From Paraburkholderia bryophila (GTDB taxonomy: Bacteria > Pseudomonadota > Gammaproteobacteria > Burkholderiales > Burkholderiaceae), in the NCBI RefSeq assembly GCF_003269035.1, contig NZ_QLTK01000006.1, positions 248,001 to 312,000 on the forward strand: a stretch of 64,000 nt of DNA, in the 5' to 3' direction. Shown here piece by piece: positions 23,788-31,512 of the stretch. The notes below the pieces were generated by a model. That model worked only from the letters and a program-made list of their open reading frames with translations. It was not told the DNA's origin and did not search any database. The stretch's first letter is position 1, and the number at the start of each line of letters is the position of its first letter. A program made the position numbers and the translations under genes.

Positions 23788-24513
23788 TCAATCCACATTG
23801 AAATGCACGCGAATGTCCTGTCGGCTTTCGACCGGATGGCCCGTCTGCATGGCCGGTGAGAAGCGCCATTTGTGCAGCACTTCAAGCAGGATCTGGTTGA
23901 GACGCGGGTTCGGCGTGGGCCTGATGAGATCGACGTCGATCGAGCCGTCGGAGTGAATCGTGAAGCGTGCGGTCGCAACCGTTTGATAGGCCTGCTCGCG
24001 TAGATCGTCGGGTAGGTCGGGTAAGGGTTGTGCAATGGGGTGTGCAGCCGTGTCGCCCGTCGATGCGTTCTGTTTTTCGTCGGCTGGCGCTGGCGGAGCA
24101 TGCGTAGCCGATTCGGCCGTCGGCCCCGATTCGCTCGTTGCCGACGGCGGACTCGACACGGTGCTCACCGTGTTTTGAGCTGGACGTGCATCGGCAGGCT
24201 TCGGCGCGATGTGTTGCGGCAATGCATCAGGGCGAGGCGCGACCGGTTTCGCCGGCTTGACTACCGGTTGATTCGCCGCGCGCAGGACGTGACTTACCGG
24301 CTCTTTCGGCTGCGGAGCAGGCGGAGGTTCGAGTTCCACCACGCGCATTTCCAAGGGTGGCTCGTGCGGCGGCACCGGCGCCGACGTCCCCAACCAATGG
24401 CCCAGCGCAACGAGAACCGTAAACCAAACCAGCGCCGCAACGACAACCGCCAACACCATTCGCATGGTCGGCGCAGCGTCGATAAAACCCGCCAAACGCA
24501 TCCGGCTACTCAC
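23788..24513 (-). CDS. tonB: Energy transducer TonB
   Basis: 241 residues. A single N-terminal membrane helix (MVLAVVVAALVWFTVLVALG) is followed by a Pro-rich periplasmic spacer (about 45-150: PPPAPQPKEP, VVKPAKPVAPRP) and the C-terminal TonB domain (ATARFTIHSDGSIDVDLIRP, LHKWRFSPAMQTG). It transmits proton-motive force to outer-membrane receptors. The GTG start overlaps the exbD stop by 3 bp (24506-24513 shared), so it is coupled to exbD; an ATG four codons on is an alternative. It is the last gene of the receptor-exbB-exbD-tonB operon, so it is probably dedicated to that receptor. Confidence 0.92.
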   Translation of the reverse strand: MSSRMRLAGFIDAAPTMRMVLAVVVAALVWFTVLVALGHWLGTSAPVPPHEPPLEMRVVELEPPPAPQPKEPVSHVLRAANQPVVKPAKPVAPRPDALPQHIAPKPADARPAQNTVSTVSSPPSATSESGPTAESATHAPPAPADEKQNASTGDTAAHPIAQPLPDLPDDLREQAYQTVATARFTIHSDGSIDVDLIRPTPNPRLNQILLEVLHKWRFSPAMQTGHPVESRQDIRVHFNVD

Positions 24514-24904
24514 GATGAACCGCTACCAGAAAATGCGCCGCCCCGGCCCGGCGCGCGGCCAGCATCGCCTGAACGACCACGCCATGACCCGCGGCATCGT
24601 CGGCGGCGATTATGACATCGCCATCGGCTTGCAGCAGACGTTTGACGGTCGGCTCGACCTGATCCTCCGACACGCGCTGACGATTGACGAACACGTCGTT
24701 GTGGCTGTCCACCGAAATAGTCAGCGGCTCATGCGCACTCATCTTCTGCGCTTGCCCGACCGGCAGCGTGATCTTGACCGCGTCGAGCCGCTGCATTGCC
24801 AGCGAAGCCAGCATGAACGTGGCCAGCAGAAAGAACATCACATCGATCATCGGAATGATTTCGATGCGACCGCGCCTGGCCGCGCGCGAGCGCTTGAATT
24901 TCAC
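24506..24904 (-). CDS. exbD: ExbD biopolymer transport protein
   Basis: 132 residues. The single membrane helix contains the essential Asp in EIIPMIDVMFFLLATFML, and the periplasmic part has the ExbD/TolR style (PLTISVDSHNDVFVNRQRVS, GDVIIAADDAAGHGVVVQAM). The start is a GTG whose last bases overlap the exbB stop (GTGA), a classic coupling arrangement. A much longer open frame runs upstream of it but is only antisense-like composition; the ExbD family start is here. Works with ExbB as the proton channel powering TonB. Confidence 0.93.
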   Translation of the reverse strand: MKFKRSRAARRGRIEIIPMIDVMFFLLATFMLASLAMQRLDAVKITLPVGQAQKMSAHEPLTISVDSHNDVFVNRQRVSEDQVEPTVKRLLQADGDVIIAADDAAGHGVVVQAMLAARRAGAAHFLVAVHRE

Positions 24905-25548
24905 GGCTGCGCTCCTGCGTCCGTGGCGGTAAGACGCACTTCGCTGAGCCGCGCATTCGCGAACGATTCGAGTTCGTCCATCAGACGCTCGAGCCGGCGC
25001 GAAAAATAGTTGAACGCAAACAGCGCGAACAGCGCAACCACGAGCCCGATCGCGGTCGCCACCAGCGACTGCGCGACGCCGCCGGTCACACCGCCCGGAT
25101 CGACGAGTCCTGAGCCGCCGAACAACTGGAACGAATGCATCATGCCGACGATCGTGCCGAGCAAACCCAGCAAAGGCGCCGCGGTCACAATGGTTTCGAG
25201 CACCCAGAAGCCCTTGCTCATCTCGCGCTCGATCTGCGAGGCCAAGGCTTCCGCCCTGGCCTCGCGCAACCAGAGCGGCGCCGACGGATCGGGCGTCCAC
25301 GGTGAGTTCATGCGCCTGAACGCGTTCTGCCTGGCGGCTTCCTTCAGGCGCTCTTCCCAATCGATACGCGAACCCGGCATGCCGATTTCGTCGGCGTTGC
25401 GTATTGCCGTGGGCAAACGTCCAAAGCGCAAAAATACATAGGCACGATCGAGCACGATCGCCACCGCCAGCACGGCCAGGATCGTGAGCGGATAGATGAC
25501 CCATCCGCCCACGCGTACCGCCGCCAGGATATTCGTCCAATCTTGCAT
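24901..25548 (-). CDS. exbB: ExbB/TolQ-family proton channel
   Basis: 215 residues with the MotA/TolQ/ExbB topology: one helix near residue 20-35 (GWVIYPLTILAVLAVAIVLD), a cytoplasmic loop, and two helices near the C-terminus (TIVTAAPLLGLLGTIVGMMH and LVATAIGLVVALFALFAFNY). The conserved GLLGTVxGM-like turn is present. It begins 27 bp after the receptor stop and overlaps exbD. With ExbD and TonB it forms the inner-membrane motor for the receptor. Confidence 0.93.
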   Translation of the reverse strand: MQDWTNILAAVRVGGWVIYPLTILAVLAVAIVLDRAYVFLRFGRLPTAIRNADEIGMPGSRIDWEERLKEAARQNAFRRMNSPWTPDPSAPLWLREARAEALASQIEREMSKGFWVLETIVTAAPLLGLLGTIVGMMHSFQLFGGSGLVDPGGVTGGVAQSLVATAIGLVVALFALFAFNYFSRRLERLMDELESFANARLSEVRLTATDAGAQP

Positions 25549-25575
25549 GACCGACCTCTTCGCTCCCTGACCGTT

Positions 25576-27732
25576 TTAGAAATGCTTGGTGATGCCGGCA
25601 TAGACGGCGAAATGCGGACCGTACTGCGGCGCACCGACGCCGATGCCCGAGCCGTCGCGCAACTCGTACACGCGGTTGAAGGCGTTGATCAGCATCAGGC
25701 GTGCATCGAATTTGCCGACCAGCGGCTGGTTGAAATGCTGGATCACGCCGAGATTGACCTGCGCGTAGACCGGCAGGCGATCGGTGTTGGCAAAGCCGCT
25801 GCGCAGGCCGGTGCCGACGAGGCCGTCGAACGTGAAGGTGGTTCGGCCGAGATCGTAGGTGCCACCGAACGACGCGGTGATGCGCTGATCGTGGTCCAGG
25901 TACACCCAGTGGCTGTTGATGTAGGCCAACTCGGTCGGGTCGAAATTGAATTGCGCGGAATCGATCTGCGTGCCCTGCGCGCGGCTGTAAGCGAGATTCA
26001 GATACGCGGACGCGTTGTCCTGTTTGTAGTTCGCCGTGAACTCGAGACCGTACACGCGCCCGAGCCGATAGTTGAACGGCGTATAGATGAGCGCGGAACC
26101 GAATTGCCCTTCGTCGAGCAGGTTGGTGGATTTCTTGTAGTACGCGTCGAGGCCGATCGTCACGTTCGAACCGAGCCGCTGCGTCACGCCGAGATCGAAA
26201 TAGTGGCTGCGTTCGGGCTGCACCGGATCGTTCAGACTCGACGGACTCTGGTTGGTCGTCCCATTGAAGCGGCTGATGGTCGAGCCGGATACCAGTTCGA
26301 AAGCGGGCGGCGTGAAATAGCGCGCGTAGCCGGCGTGAAACGTCGTGGTCGGTGTGAGTGCGTAGACCAGTCCGATGCGCGGGCTCAACTGACTCGCGCT
26401 CACATACTCGTCCATCTTGTCGTAACGCAGGCCGTAATTGAGCGTGAGCTTGCTGGTGAGTTTCCACTCGTCCTGAACGTAAGCGCTATACAGGTAGCCG
26501 GTTTTGCTGCTCGAGTCCGGAATATTGAAAGGCTGGTCGGAGGCCTGGGTGCCGGTGCTGTCGGTGGCGAATACGTTCACGCTGTCGTTGAACACCGCAT
26601 GTTCCTGCTGGAAGAACACGCCGGCGCGGATCGTATGTTTGTCGTTCAGCCGCCATGTGGTGTCCACCTGCGCGCCATTCGCCGAGTTGCTGTGAAAGTC
26701 CTGCGACGCCACGCCGTTGAACAGCAGATCGCCCACCGGATCCGGATTGAACTGGGTGCGCGTGTAGCGGGTGAACAGCGCGACCTGATAGTCCAGCGCG
26801 CCGCCGTTGGTGCCCTGCAACGCGACCACCGCGAAGTTGTTCAGCTCGGATTGCGTTTCGTTCAATTGACTCGAATTGAACGTGTTGTTGCCGTTCAACG
26901 TGAAGTTGGTGGCCAGCCCCGGCGTGTTGGGAATTTCGAACTGGTTGCTGGTGGTGCCGAACATCAGGCTCACGCGCGTGAGCGGGTTGATGATGTACGA
27001 CATGTAGCCGAACGCGTCGCCCTGACGCGTGTGGTCGTGAATGGCGTTCGCGCTGGAAGTCGGATTCTCGATGCCGAGATTGTTGACGCCGAGCGAGCCG
27101 CTGAAGTAGTAGCTGAACGGACCTTGCGTGCCGAACACGTCGGCGCTGGTCTTGAGCGTTTGATGGCTACCGCCGAACACGCTGACGGAGCCGCCGTCGC
27201 CGGCGTCGCCCGACTTCGTGCGAATGTCCACTACGCCCGCGGTGCGATAGCCGTACTGCGCCGGCAGCGCGCCGGTCAGCAGATTCACCTGATCGATGAT
27301 GCGCGTATCGAGCGCCTGCCCGAAGCCGCTGATCGGCTCGGGAATGATGATGCCGTTGATCCGGTATTGCAGATTGGCGTGGTCGCCGCGTACGTGCAAC
27401 TGCCCGTACGAGTCGCTGGCCACGCCGGGCGCTTGCAGCAGCACCTGATTCAACGGCGTGTCCTGGCCTGCGGGCAGCGCGTCGATGTCGGCCTGGCTGA
27501 AGCGATACACGCTGCTGCCGGTCTCCGGCAACAAGCCGTTGCGCGCGCGATCGAGCCGCCTGGCGTTCACCTGCACGTCGAGCGTGTCGCTCTTCGCGAG
27601 CTTGCCGACGGGTTTGTCCGCCTTGTCGGTAACAGCGCCGGTCGCTGGGCTTTCATCGGTTGCGGCATGGGCATGAGCGGCGATAGCGAACAGCAGCAAA
27701 GCTGCATGAGAGACACGCGTGCGGTTTTTCAT
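25576..27732 (-). CDS. TonB-dependent outer-membrane receptor
   Basis: 718 residues from the ATG at 27732, the first start giving a signal peptide (HAALLLFAIAAHAHA). A plug domain (about 60-190: LNQVLLQAPGV, LHVRGDHANLQYRINGIIIP, QYGYRTAGVVDIRTKSG) is followed by a 22-strand type barrel (DEWKLTSKLTLNYGLRYD, LSPRIGLVYALTPTTTFHAG) ending in the terminal Phe that outer-membrane proteins need. First gene of its own exbB-exbD-tonB operon. The promoter carries a Zur-like box, so zinc (or a zinc chelate) is the most likely ligand, by inference; the barrel lacks obvious His-rich loops. No clear Shine-Dalgarno precedes the start. Confidence 0.92.
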   Translation of the reverse strand: MKNRTRVSHAALLLFAIAAHAHAATDESPATGAVTDKADKPVGKLAKSDTLDVQVNARRLDRARNGLLPETGSSVYRFSQADIDALPAGQDTPLNQVLLQAPGVASDSYGQLHVRGDHANLQYRINGIIIPEPISGFGQALDTRIIDQVNLLTGALPAQYGYRTAGVVDIRTKSGDAGDGGSVSVFGGSHQTLKTSADVFGTQGPFSYYFSGSLGVNNLGIENPTSSANAIHDHTRQGDAFGYMSYIINPLTRVSLMFGTTSNQFEIPNTPGLATNFTLNGNNTFNSSQLNETQSELNNFAVVALQGTNGGALDYQVALFTRYTRTQFNPDPVGDLLFNGVASQDFHSNSANGAQVDTTWRLNDKHTIRAGVFFQQEHAVFNDSVNVFATDSTGTQASDQPFNIPDSSSKTGYLYSAYVQDEWKLTSKLTLNYGLRYDKMDEYVSASQLSPRIGLVYALTPTTTFHAGYARYFTPPAFELVSGSTISRFNGTTNQSPSSLNDPVQPERSHYFDLGVTQRLGSNVTIGLDAYYKKSTNLLDEGQFGSALIYTPFNYRLGRVYGLEFTANYKQDNASAYLNLAYSRAQGTQIDSAQFNFDPTELAYINSHWVYLDHDQRITASFGGTYDLGRTTFTFDGLVGTGLRSGFANTDRLPVYAQVNLGVIQHFNQPLVGKFDARLMLINAFNRVYELRDGSGIGVGAPQYGPHFAVYAGITKHF

Positions 27733-27871
27733 CGTTATGGAGGTGGTGTTGGCGACCAGGTGGAAGCGTTGTCCGTCTCGTCGACGGTCGTCCTGGTTTT
27801 TTGCGGACGAACGCGATCGGCGTGATTGGTCTGGATCACGTGACGTCCCGGCTGGCGTCCGGGGCAAATAA

Positions 27872-27886
27872 TGTTATAACATTACA
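27872..27886. promoter_or_regulatory. Zur-like box at the receptor promoter
   Basis: TGTTATAACATTACA differs at one position from the zinc-uptake-regulator consensus I know from Neisseria (TGTTATDNHATAACA). It sits within a 16-bp perfect palindrome TAATGTTATAACATTA (27869-27884) covering the -10 element of the receptor operon. Binding would repress when zinc is plentiful. Assignment to Zur is an inference. Confidence 0.55.
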
Positions 27887-27900
27887 TTGAAAATTAACAA
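27873..27900 (-). promoter_or_regulatory. Sigma-70 promoter of the receptor-exbBD-tonB operon
   Basis: Minus strand: TTGTTA (27895-27900), 16-base spacer, TATAAC (27873-27878). The -10 element lies inside the palindrome, giving a leader of about 130 bases to the receptor ATG. Confidence 0.55.
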
Positions 27901-27979
27901 CGAAAACTTAAGCGGTGTTGTTTCGGCGGGAAGAGCACGGAGGGGAACGGGAGGGCGGCGCGACGAGCGTGTGCGGCGA

Positions 27980-28410
27980 GGTGTGAAATTGTCCGTGCCG
28001 CCGAGTTTCGCCGCCAAGTGGTTCGCCCCGCGCATGGCGAGCTTTCTGAAGCGCTATCCGGATGTGGCGCTGGATCTGACCACGTCGACTGCGTTTGTGG
28101 ATTTCGAGCTCGACGGCGTCGACCTGGCGATCCGCTATTTCAACGGCGAGGATCCGACGCTCACGGTAGAAAACTGTGCACGGACGAAGCGCACGTGTAT
28201 GGCGCGCCGGATTACATGAAGCGTCTGAAGATACGGCATCCTGACGATGTGAGGAAGGCGACGCTGCTGCATAACACGCTGCATCCGCACTGGTCGCCGT
28301 GGCTCGGTAAGTTCTCGCGTTTGTCCGCTGAACAGATCGCGTCGATTCCCGGGATTCAGTTCGATCGATCGCTGATCGCGATCGACGCTGCCGTGCGCGG
28401 ACAGGGGCTT
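27980..28410 (+). pseudogene. LysR-family regulator remnant (no HTH, frameshifted)
   Basis: The effector-binding half of a GcvA-like LysR protein is readable in two frames: VKLSVPPSFAAKWFAPRM to NGEDPTLTV in one, then KLCTDEAHVYGAPDYMKRL to IAIDAAVRGQGL in the other. Adding a single A to the short A-run at about 28169-28174 restores one continuous frame (TLTV-E-K-LCTDEA). The DNA-binding N-terminus is missing, its place taken by the receptor promoter region, and beyond 28410 the LysR similarity stops. It is therefore a truncated, frameshifted relic. It may once have been the divergent regulator of the neighbouring receptor operon, or debris of a rearrangement. Confidence 0.8.
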
Positions 28411-28570
28411 ATCGATGAAGCGCATACCGCGCTGCGCCGAGCTTCTTCGACTTCCCGCAAAGCCTTGTACAGCAAGGCTGCCAAACGTTTGCGATATTTC
28501 CTCGGACAAACCCGGATATTAAAGAAATGCGGCATGCATGTCGTTATCCCATGAAATAAGTCAGGACCAT

Positions 28571-28635: not shown

Positions 28636-29874
28636 TTGAATCACCAACGATCGCCATGGTCGCGTACAGCGGCTCCGGGCGAGGTCATCTATTCGGAAGG
28701 CTTCGCGGGCGACGCTGTCATCTACGTTATTGCAGATGGCAAAGTCGAAATCTCCACCCAGTGCGATGAAAAGAAGGTGATTCTCGCCACGCTAGGGAAG
28801 GGCGAATTTTTCGGCGAAGCGGCTTTGTTGCCCGCGGAACCGCGCGCGCATACCGCGAAAGCACTCAGCTTCCTGCAACTCACCGTGATCGCGGCGAACA
28901 TCGTGGAAGAAGAGCTCGAACGCGTGTCGCCGCTGCTGCGTCATATCGTTCGCACCATGATTCGCCGCGTGAAGAAGAAGGACGACATCCTCGCCACCAA
29001 TACGCACGCCGATTTTCTGCCGGGTGTCGTTTCGTATGCGCACGTTCTCGCGTTGATGGCCGGTGTCGAAAGTGCCGATCGGGATGCCCGCATGCGCCGC
29101 GCGCAAGGCGAGGAATTCTCGGTGCCGCTGCCCGAAGTGATCAAGAAGTGCCACGCGATTGCCGGCCATTCCCGTCCCCACGTGATGGCCATGCTCAAAC
29201 GCATGGAGAAGCTCAACCTGGTCACGCTCGAACCGGGCCGCTCCGAACGCCTCGGCAACACGTCCGCGCGCTATTCGGCGGAAGGCGCGGCGGGCCGCCA
29301 GCTCGTCACCTTCGATCCGGTGCGAATCACGGAACGCGCGCAGCAGGTCGCGGATCACGATCTCGATCTGTCGATCAGCAGCGAACTGGAGCTGATCGAA
29401 CTCGACGATCTGGAAGCGCTGATCGGCGTCGAGAAGAAGGTCATTCTCAACAAGCTGTCTCACGCGGAAATCGCGGAAGATCTGTTCGCGTTTCGCAAGA
29501 CCCGCGTGTTGAACTACGTCGAGGAAAAAGGCATTACGTATTTTTCGCGTCGCACGGTGCGCGGCGCCAGCGACGTGAATTCGCTCGATGACCTGGAATT
29601 CGTCGACCAACGCACGCTGTTCGAAGCTGTCAGCGCATTCGATACCTACGATCTGGCGAAACTGCTTTCCGCAGCGACCGGGCAACCGGCGGCCGAACGG
29701 TTGATGTCGGTCATGACCGAGGCGAGAAAGAAAGAAGTGTCGTGGGTCATGCGGCGTGAAATCAAAATCGATCCGCTCGAAATCGCCGAGATCGAGCAGC
29801 GCTTTATCGACACGATACGCACGCTTAAAGCGCCTGCGGGCAATGCGATGCCGCACTCCAATCTGAGTGTGTGA
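28636..29874 (+). CDS. Cyclic-nucleotide-binding domain fused to FliG-like C-terminal domain
   Basis: 412 residues. Residues about 10-110 form a Crp-type cNMP-binding jelly roll (GEVIYSEGFAGDAVIYVIADG, then the phosphate-cassette region GEFFGEAALLPAEPRAHTAK). Residues 110-220 are helical, with a possible winged-helix stretch (VIKKCHAIAGHSRPHVMAML). Residues about 245-300 resemble FliG middle-domain repeats, and 318-397 resemble the torque-generating FliG C-terminus (LEFVDQRTLFEAVSAFDTYDLAKLLSAATG; LMSVMTEARKKEVSWVMRRE; IAEIEQRFIDTIRTL). D336 and D339 fall near FliG torque-helix acidic residues, but the usual Arg in that helix is not conserved. The start is TTG with GGGGGA eight bases upstream. 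MotA-like and MotB-like genes follow. I infer a switch- or clutch-like partner for a non-flagellar stator, gated by a nucleotide signal. Domain calls are by eye. Confidence 0.72.
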   Translation: MNHQRSPWSRTAAPGEVIYSEGFAGDAVIYVIADGKVEISTQCDEKKVILATLGKGEFFGEAALLPAEPRAHTAKALSFLQLTVIAANIVEEELERVSPLLRHIVRTMIRRVKKKDDILATNTHADFLPGVVSYAHVLALMAGVESADRDARMRRAQGEEFSVPLPEVIKKCHAIAGHSRPHVMAMLKRMEKLNLVTLEPGRSERLGNTSARYSAEGAAGRQLVTFDPVRITERAQQVADHDLDLSISSELELIELDDLEALIGVEKKVILNKLSHAEIAEDLFAFRKTRVLNYVEEKGITYFSRRTVRGASDVNSLDDLEFVDQRTLFEAVSAFDTYDLAKLLSAATGQPAAERLMSVMTEARKKEVSWVMRREIKIDPLEIAEIEQRFIDTIRTLKAPAGNAMPHSNLSV

Positions 29875-29980
29875 CGCGATTTGCGTGCTGATCTGCGTGC
29901 GGGTTGGCGTGCGGGTTCGTCATCAAGCACGCTGTTTTCATTGCAGGTTCGAAGGCTCGGGCGGCCATTCGAGAGGACGT

Positions 29981-30745
29981 ATGGATCTTTTGACGCTATT
30001 GGGCGCCGTGTTCGGCGTCACGGCGATCGTCGCCGGTTTCTCGCTGGAGGGTGGGCACTTTACGGCCCTGTTTCAGCCGGAGGCATTCGTTATCGTGCTG
30101 GGCGGCACGCTCGGCGCGGTGATGATCCAGAACACGTGGGCGCGATTCTTCGATGGCGTCAAGCAACTGCGCCTGGCCTTCGTGAGGGCGCGGCAGGTCG
30201 ACCGCAAGAGCCTGTCGGTTCTGCTCGAATGGGGCGATCAGGCGAAGCTGAACGGCATGCTGGCGTTCGAGTCGATCGAGGCCGGCGGGATCAATCCGTT
30301 TGCACAACGAGGGCTCGAACTTCTGGCGAACGGTGTAGCCACGGCCGTGCTCGAAGATGCGCTGCAACGGGAGCTGGATGCGTACGAGCGCAATCACGTG
30401 GCGGCTGCGCGAATCTGGCAACAGGCGGGCGGCTACGCACCGACGTTCGGCATTCTCGGCGCGGTGCTCGGCCTGATTCAGGTCACGGGTCATATGCTCG
30501 AACCCGCGCAACTGGGGCAAGGTATCGCCACTGCGTTCGTGGCGACGCTCTACGGTCTCGCGTTCGCGAATCTGGTGTTTCTGCCGCTGTACGGCAAGAT
30601 TCGCGCGCAGGTGGATAGCGAGTTGCGCTTCCGTCGTTTGTATCTCGACGGGTTGCTCGCGATCTCGCGCAAGGAGTCGCCGCATACGATCGAAACGCGT
30701 CTGGCCGGCGACGTGCGGGCGAGATCGGCCGAGTTGCTGGGGTAG
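29981..30745 (+). CDS. MotA/PomA-like stator protein
   Basis: 254 residues from the ATG at 29981 (GAGAGGA upstream), the usual MotA-family length. The N-terminus (MDLLTLLGAVFGVTAIVAGF) and GGTLGAVMIQNT resemble PomA/MotC. A cytoplasmic loop of about 100 residues (RGLELLANGVATAVLEDALQ, ELDAYERNH) precedes two C-terminal membrane helices with the conserved prolines in GYAPTFGILGAVLGLI (P154) and FLPLYGKI (P202), both important for torque in flagellar stators. It lies 106 bp behind the cNMP-FliG gene and 77 bp before the MotB-like gene, with no other flagellar gene in the window. Probably forms an ion channel with the next protein. Confidence 0.88.
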   Translation: MDLLTLLGAVFGVTAIVAGFSLEGGHFTALFQPEAFVIVLGGTLGAVMIQNTWARFFDGVKQLRLAFVRARQVDRKSLSVLLEWGDQAKLNGMLAFESIEAGGINPFAQRGLELLANGVATAVLEDALQRELDAYERNHVAAARIWQQAGGYAPTFGILGAVLGLIQVTGHMLEPAQLGQGIATAFVATLYGLAFANLVFLPLYGKIRAQVDSELRFRRLYLDGLLAISRKESPHTIETRLAGDVRARSAELLG

Positions 30746-30822
30746 CGAGCCGCGCGGATCGCGCGTGTGCAGTCGTTCAGGACGGTTCAATCAAACGTGA
30801 ATTCGAAGCAGGCGTTGCGGGC

Positions 30823-31512
30823 ATGACATTCTCCTCGGGAAACAGACGCTTCAGGGCGGATAAAACCGGCTATCAGGACGCCGACAAGGGCGACGAAGGC
30901 GACGAGCAATCCGGCCGCTGGCTGATTTCCTACGCGGATCTCATCACCTCGCTCATGGTGTTATTCCTCGCGTTATACGCATTAGAGCTGGCGAAGAACC
31001 GCGAGCTGGAGATCAAGGCGCTCGAGCATCGCGCGGAGAAGACGTTGGCGGTATCGAATGCCGGCGGCACGCCCGACACCGCGAAGAAGCAACTGCTCTC
31101 CTTGCTGGAACCACTCAAGAGCAACAGCCAGATTACGATTTCGAACGCGACGCACGGCGTTGAAATCGCGATCAACGCGAAAATCCTTTTTAACTCCGGC
31201 GACGCGCGGCTATTACCCGAATCGTTCGGCGTGCTGAGCCAGATTGCCGGCGTGCTGCGCGACCGTTCGAAAAACACCATTCTCGTCGAAGGACATACGG
31301 ACAGCGTGCCGATCGCCACGGCGAAATTCGAGTCGAACTGGGAGCTGTCATCGGCGAGAGCAGGAGCAGTGGTTCGTTTTTTCGCCGACAAAGGAATCGA
31401 AGCGCACCGAATGGCGGCGATAGGTCGAGCCGATAACTTCCCGTTGATCATCGGCGACGACGCCGCCGCTCGCGCCGCGAATCGGCGCGTGACGATTCTC
31501 GTCGAGTATTGA
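30823..31512 (+). CDS. MotB-like stator protein with OmpA-type peptidoglycan-binding domain
   Basis: 229 residues, shorter than typical flagellar MotB (about 300). One membrane helix, SYADLITSLMVLFLALYALE, contains the ion-carrying Asp (D39) at the position conserved in MotB/PomB. After a linker with a plug-like helix (about 58-75) comes the OmpA C-terminal domain (FNSGDARLLPESFGVLSQIA, ILVEGHTDSVPIA, NWELSSARAGAVVRFF, AIGRADNFPL), which anchors stators to peptidoglycan. The GSS-poor, compact linker suggests a short reach through the periplasm. Third gene of the cNMP-FliG/MotA/MotB set. Confidence 0.88.
   Translation: MTFSSGNRRFRADKTGYQDADKGDEGDEQSGRWLISYADLITSLMVLFLALYALELAKNRELEIKALEHRAEKTLAVSNAGGTPDTAKKQLLSLLEPLKSNSQITISNATHGVEIAINAKILFNSGDARLLPESFGVLSQIAGVLRDRSKNTILVEGHTDSVPIATAKFESNWELSSARAGAVVRFFADKGIEAHRMAAIGRADNFPLIIGDDAAARAANRRVTILVEY

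Follow-up and report, generated by a model that had tools for sequence, protein, structure and literature searches.

A conserved three-gene set in Paraburkholderia bryophila encoding a candidate cyclic-nucleotide-binding FliG_C fusion next to a MotA/MotB stator

The three genes and their products

A three-gene set on the plus strand at 28636-31512 of the window (the whole 64,000-nucleotide stretch of P. bryophila DNA analyzed here) was confirmed as real. The first gene (28636..29874, plus strand) starts at TTG and encodes a 412-aa protein, here called the fusion, in which a cyclic-nucleotide-binding (CNB) domain is followed by a predicted CRP-like winged helix, a linker, and a FliG_C-like C-terminus. 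A 106-nt gap separates it from the gene for a MotA-like A subunit (29981..30745, plus strand; 254 aa from ATG), and a further 77 nt lie before the gene for a MotB-like B subunit (30823..31512, plus strand; 229 aa). The longest listed version of the MotA frame begins at a GTG at 29867, versus the ATG at 29981 used here. The proteins closest to those of the window are from Paraburkholderia (98% identity). Promoter and terminator scans of the locus gave no signal exceeding that of shuffled sequences, and a phage origin was rejected, as the fusion had no match in PHROGs. In the ORF list, the region upstream of this triad (24506-28554) holds an ExbD-like stretch and a TonB-dependent-receptor-like ORF on the minus strand and short, apparently broken LysR-like frames on the plus strand.

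The front end of the fusion matches Pfam cNMP_binding with an E value of 7.2e-17 over residues 11-95 (28666..28920, plus strand), in agreement with the Crp-type nucleotide-binding N-terminus proposed in an earlier note on this DNA. This span contains the pocket residues E61 and R70, and R111 falls just outside it; E61 and R111 are present in 60/60 aligned fusion rows and R70 in 59/60, such that the predicted nucleotide pocket is near-invariant among fusions. A phosphate-binding cassette is present in the CNB domain, as in the CRP/Fnr family. A CRP model covers residues 21-197 (27.3 bits, far below its own cut-off of 266), and the predicted structure has the helices and strand expected of a winged-helix region. 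No PilZ domain was found in the fusion (Pfam, E <= 1). A fold search with the fusion model matched cAMP-bound Bd1971 of Bdellovibrio, which shares the CNB fold with the fusion, as does Bd2879, a protein that also has winged helices after its CNB domain and in which T65/S66 and D54/Q55 take the places of the phosphate and ribose residues of Bd1971. Unlike the fusion, neither Bdellovibrio protein is reported to have a FliG_C domain in the available parts of their descriptions.

The C-terminus of the window fusion (residues 316-398; 29581..29829, plus strand) scores below the FliG_C cut-off (20.1 to 22.2 versus 23.3 bits; Pfam E value = 7.8e-4), and several comparisons indicate that this weak match exceeds chance. 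A profile of 11 fusion C-termini searched against the PDB found 10 sequences at E <= 1, all of them FliG (best, 2.7e-10). The cut-off is reached by the fusions of 27/47 loci on their own scores, with 5 falling below it and the remaining 15, the window's own among them, having no score in that listing; all eight listed relatives of the fusion of G116, a genome from outside the family, carry precomputed PF01706 (P0125-P0132, its own entry included). In an alignment with 40 FliGs, some rows differ over the domain by a single one-residue gap, and hhalign of the fusion against canonical FliG aligned the expected 82 to 84 residues, at modest probabilities of 56 and 64%. Residues 311-400 form a mostly helical block in the AlphaFold model (pLDDT 72-90), whose pTM of 0.41 means that domain placement carries little information; a fold search with the whole model returned 50 rows filled by CNB chains and no FliG, a list that barely probes the C-terminus. 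Across 45 Burkholderiaceae rows, the alignment segments equivalent to the torque helix rank 30th and 46th in conservation among 400, and R364, E367, W370, R373, and R374 are invariant. The FliG-like C-terminus suggested earlier is thus supported, at the level of sequence, by the PDB profile search and by relatives that pass the Pfam cut-off. What the fusion shares with FliG is the fold and alignment of the C-terminal torque domain. FliG also has FliG_N, FliG_M, an EHPQ motif, and the residues R281/D288/D289/R297; neither of the two domains was found in the window fusion (Pfam), the FliM-binding EHPQ motif occurs in 0/60 fusion rows versus 10/10 canonical FliGs, the MF.F motif occurs in 1/60 fusion rows, and the residue pattern is changed.

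Other FliG_C proteins came to light in the same searches. A Methylococcales genome encodes two more on the minus strand, of 534 aa (L153:3146-4747) and 954 aa (L154:3-2864), the latter with two FliG_C stretches. Long proteins of 586 to 789 aa with FliG_M, FliG_C, and a weak FliF-like stretch occur at L286:1955-3712 (minus strand), L287:7416-9539 (minus strand), and L285:3965-6331 (plus strand), two of them near MotA/MotB genes. G020 and G097, among the genomes that carry these proteins, have no other FliG_C match, and the proteins possibly belong to a separate FliF-FliG-type motor.

The stator genes have the domains (MotA_N and MotA_ExbB in MotA; MotB_plug and a peptidoglycan-binding OmpA domain in MotB; Pfam) and the channel proline and aspartate residues of a MotA/MotB stator. 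Residues such as R90, E98, and D289 were placed in alignments by motif, following what we take to be the E. coli numbering. The window MotA has K89 at the place of R90 and E97 at that of E98 and keeps P154 and P202; these two prolines and D39 of MotB had been numbered exactly in the earlier note. G93, E98, P173, and P222 (E. coli numbering) are kept in 55/55 MotA rows of one alignment, and the channel Asp is kept in 42/42 MotB rows. The window MotA passes the NCBIfam model PRK09109 (flagellar motor protein; 250.2 versus a cut-off of 237 bits), and most of its best matches in the class are flagellar-type MotAs at 40 to 44% identity. MotB had been called short, and its 229 aa are real, yet they are near the length of the MotS/MotD models that match it. 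The remark that the window holds no flagellar gene likewise needs qualification: elsewhere, the genome has a canonical FliG and two other MotAs. Zorya defense was considered and rejected, since MotA had no match in PADLOC and the matches of MotB (best, 1.3e-18) were to generic ZorB models, which MotB-like proteins may match generally; these were the only defense matches.

Distribution and gene neighborhoods

A search of 200 genomes of the family with the C-terminal profile matched 43, of which 42 encode a full-length fusion and one (G320) a partial one. We examined 38 of the 41 full-length loci besides the window's (leaving out G421, G435, and G379), and all 38 have the order fusion-MotA-MotB; at L088, a hydrolase-like frame, read by eye, separates MotA from MotB. 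The G320 fusion has no stator match in the surrounding 13 kb. Among 274 genomes of the class, four outside the family encode full-length relatives at 27 to 33% identity in one comparison, three of them (G116, G232, and G104; fusions 26 to 31% identical) with MotA and MotB downstream. A Desulfovibrio MAG (G850) has one contig with a complete triad and a second with two stator-less fusions in tandem. For the fusions of two further MAGs, one of the Thiotrichales and one of the Methylococcales, the DNA examined gave no stator match. A draw of 398 genomes from the phylum gave relatives at E <= 1e-10 in two, both from the window's family. Within the Burkholderiaceae, the triad is common in four genera, and outside these it is rare; the three genes are neighbors well beyond one strain, across Burkholderiaceae genera, other Gammaproteobacteria, and a second phylum.

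Class III cyclase genes occur near some of the remote fusions: immediately before the fusion in G116, three genes after it in the Thiotrichales MAG, and at the far end of a same-strand cluster, about 10 kb away, in G232. Such a gene is thus found nearby in 3/6 remote genomes with FliG_C fusions, few or no neighbors having been scanned in the other three; in a Rubrivivax MAG, a related protein without FliG_C is encoded beside such a gene. The window's own genome has no class III cyclase by a PF00211 search, and a cyclase of this kind dedicated to the window's system was therefore rejected. In G232 (L157:4342-18009), the triad heads the same-strand cluster, which includes genes for a TPS exoprotein, a CHAT-TPR protein, a DUF928 protein, a ShlB-type protein, and a CHASE2-cyclase, and a second small CNB protein is encoded between the fusion and MotA.

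In the Burkholderiaceae, 15/38 loci have a chemoreceptor-like gene, named from its sequence, on the triad's strand no more than 4 kb downstream, 11 of them with a distance of 46 to 89 bp from the MotB frame; none is among the ORFs listed for the window. No other conserved structural gene was recognized in the Burkholderiaceae neighborhoods by a coarse comparison short of full annotation, and upstream neighbors share matches in at most 8/38 loci. In G428, the gene for a second full FliG (L155:10134-11159, minus strand) follows that for the triad MotB at a distance of about 650 bp; when the surrounding 60 kb were compared with ORFs near the fliG of the window's genome (20 kb), only that gene and overlapping frames matched.

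Contact residues and two stator lineages

In E. coli, according to the available part of one study, MotA R90 pairs with FliG D289 and E98 with R281, and the arginine positions stators on FliG (PMC4030992); the FliG partner of R90 is given as D288-D289 in the part seen of a MotAB survey (PMC12505986). We found Arg at the R90 position in 63/64 non-triad MotA rows (26/26, from 25 distinct sequences; 29/29 of the MotC type; and 8/9 further rows, the ninth with Lys) versus 0/20 triad rows, which have Lys in 16 and Ile, Met, Leu, and Ser in one each. The triad rows represent 18 genomes, two of which appear twice, and 14 of these genomes are Burkholderiaceae (drawn from the 38 loci and the window). 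All 16 Burkholderiaceae triad rows have Lys, a conservative replacement that counts against private pairing. The E98 position is Glu in 20/20 triad rows, the exceptions among non-triad rows being one Asp and one Gln. The other four MotAs of the Desulfovibrio MAG have R, R, R, and K at the R90 position.

On the FliG side, K264, R281, and D289 are present in 38/38 canonical rows; two divergent second FliGs, both without D289, were kept apart from these. Asp was found at the D289 position in 0/11 fusion rows of a first alignment. In the 60-row alignment, this position is V or I in 45/45 Burkholderiaceae rows, whereas the 13 remote rows that include the domain have T in nine and I, A, E, and D in one each. 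E and D belong to the two tandem fusions of Desulfovibrio, and the Desulfovibrio triad fusion is also acidic (E); loss of D289 in every fusion is ruled out by these three proteins, and, as aligned, the loss applies to the Burkholderiaceae and gammaproteobacterial fusions. The R297 position is acidic in 57/58 fusion rows with the domain and Asn in one. The window fusion has A363 at R281, W370/V371 at D288/D289, and D379 at R297. Judged from these alignments, both sides of the contact are changed in Burkholderiaceae and gammaproteobacterial triads and the MotA side only in the Desulfovibrio triad. Fusions that have no stator linked to them (Thiotrichales, Methylococcales, and G320) lack D289 too, and its loss alone is therefore no proof of pairing. 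All triads checked have a changed contact residue in MotA, a pattern that favors a dedicated pair over a decoy directed at flagellar stators.

The triad MotAs needed two placements in each of three trees. In the last, six Burkholderiaceae triads fell on the MotC-type side, and the triad MotAs of G850, G104, G116, and G232 formed a clade (99/94) elsewhere; constraining all ten to one clade was rejected (p-AU = 2.1e-7), which suggests that the pairing arose twice. Neither group has kept R90. The first two trees contained flagged long branches, and the last contained one, a non-triad row. The triad stators share their domain make-up and channel residues with stators of the MotC/MotD kind, from which they differ in the replaced R90 and in being encoded with a putative nucleotide-binding FliG_C protein. 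Non-flagellar 5:2 motors, such as TolQR, ExbBD, ZorAB, and GldLM, are also ion-driven A/B pairs. The part seen of the survey (PMC12505986) places such pairs in a separate group from the flagellar stators, unlike the triad MotAs, which group with flagellar-type MotAs in our trees, built without TolQ or ExbB rows.

Candidate roles of the fusion and its stator

We give a probability of about one-half to the reading that flagellar-type stators were twice retargeted to a private FliG_C partner under cyclic-nucleotide control. Starting from the parts, the conserved pocket, the kept channel residues, the conserved order, and the changed contact residues, all visible in the sequences, we infer docking, nucleotide binding, and an output of the fusion. 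A proton-driven MotA/MotB stator of MotC/MotD-like descent would have exchanged the flagellar rotor for a private partner in the cytoplasm, whose FliG_C domain would dock on the MotA ring. The CRP-like front end may take up a cyclic nucleotide, and the resulting change in the protein would engage or release the stator. The cyclase genes near the fusion in G116, G232, and the Thiotrichales MAG speak for this reading; the lack of a class III cyclase in the window's genome and the flagellar NCBIfam match of its MotA speak against it. The output might be the gating or loading of the stator or the holding and releasing of a CRP-type regulator. A regulatory output appears most likely, over the turning of a filament, as the partner lacks the FliF- and FliM-binding part and appears to have kept a CRP-type winged helix. 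A bolder version, which we regard as rather doubtful, is that the wall-anchored, proton-driven MotA/MotB ring tethers, through FliG_C, a putative DNA-binding transcription regulator of the CRP type that is under cyclic-nucleotide control.

Several rivals have to be weighed against a retargeted stator. MotA/MotB could serve the flagellum as an auxiliary stator, with the fusion acting as a cyclic-nucleotide-controlled FliG decoy that, as a clutch, keeps stators away from the rotor or alters the choice among them. YcgR, a c-di-GMP clutch, offers a precedent, being a second-messenger protein that binds MotA at the FliG-contacting residues in the part seen of its description (PMC12713396); unlike YcgR, the fusion gave no PilZ match and has its own stator alongside. 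The MotA groupings and its flagellar NCBIfam score, the downstream chemoreceptor-like genes, and the existence of stator-less fusions fit this explanation, as does the canonical FliG found in 47/47 fusion-bearing genomes, versus a class base rate of 146/274 genomes with any FliG_C match. A further set gave 5/5, two being assemblies already among the 47 and one (G849) having no FliG_C fusion. Within the window's genus, however, FliG is present in 22/22 sampled genomes and the triad in 11/22, so that co-occurrence there is uninformative, and the 4/4 class carriers outside the family that have canonical FliG are too few to decide; co-occurrence with flagella was therefore dropped as a discriminator. 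As the stator-positioning Arg is missing from all triad MotAs and D289 from the Burkholderiaceae and gammaproteobacterial fusions, we consider a flagellar regulator unlikely.

Less probable still is a force-generating machine in its own right, in which several copies of the fusion would build a rotor-like structure that the stator turns for a non-flagellar purpose, for example surface movement or envelope work. Intact channel residues, the peptidoglycan-binding domain of MotB, and the E98 kept in all triad rows are compatible with such a machine, which would nevertheless have to do without the ring-forming FliG_N and FliG_M, without the EHPQ motif, almost entirely without the MF.F motif, and without any further conserved structural gene recognized in our coarse comparison of Burkholderiaceae neighborhoods. 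The earlier note had offered a nucleotide-gated machine or a FliG-displacing regulator. A dedicated pair is favored by our results, and a purely separate machine is opposed by the canonical FliG of all 47 genomes together with a MotA that passes a flagellar cut-off. The least probable explanation, in our estimate, is an ordinary CRP-type regulator with a vestigial FliG_C and a bystander stator. The CRP-like front end, the below-cut-off FliG_C score in the window, and related proteins that end before FliG_C (P0154, P0155, and L166) would suit it; it is at odds with a gene order that persists in different genera and in another phylum and with a torque-helix equivalent that is among the more conserved segments and has five invariant residues.

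The gene set is real and conserved and was matched to no described system in these comparisons, and a private stator partnership is the favored reading. Among the open-licence papers listed in our searches (subscription journals and bioRxiv aside), none described a FliG that binds cyclic nucleotides or such a gene set; the part seen of the MotAB survey (PMC12505986) names FliG once and Burkholderia or "cyclic" never.

Flagellar stators are usually thought to serve one rotor. Here, stators of two lineages appear to be paired with a second FliG_C protein, and the contact residue is gone in both, so that the triads offer a natural experiment on the specificity between stator and rotor and on the ways in which ion motors acquire new outputs. 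With its predicted nucleotide-binding front end, the partner of the stator would itself contain a second-messenger receptor. If the stator does tether a CRP-type regulator, gene expression would directly report the state of the motor, the proton-motive force, or the load on the wall, and the use of a motor as a sensor would have arisen at least twice from flagellar-type stators.
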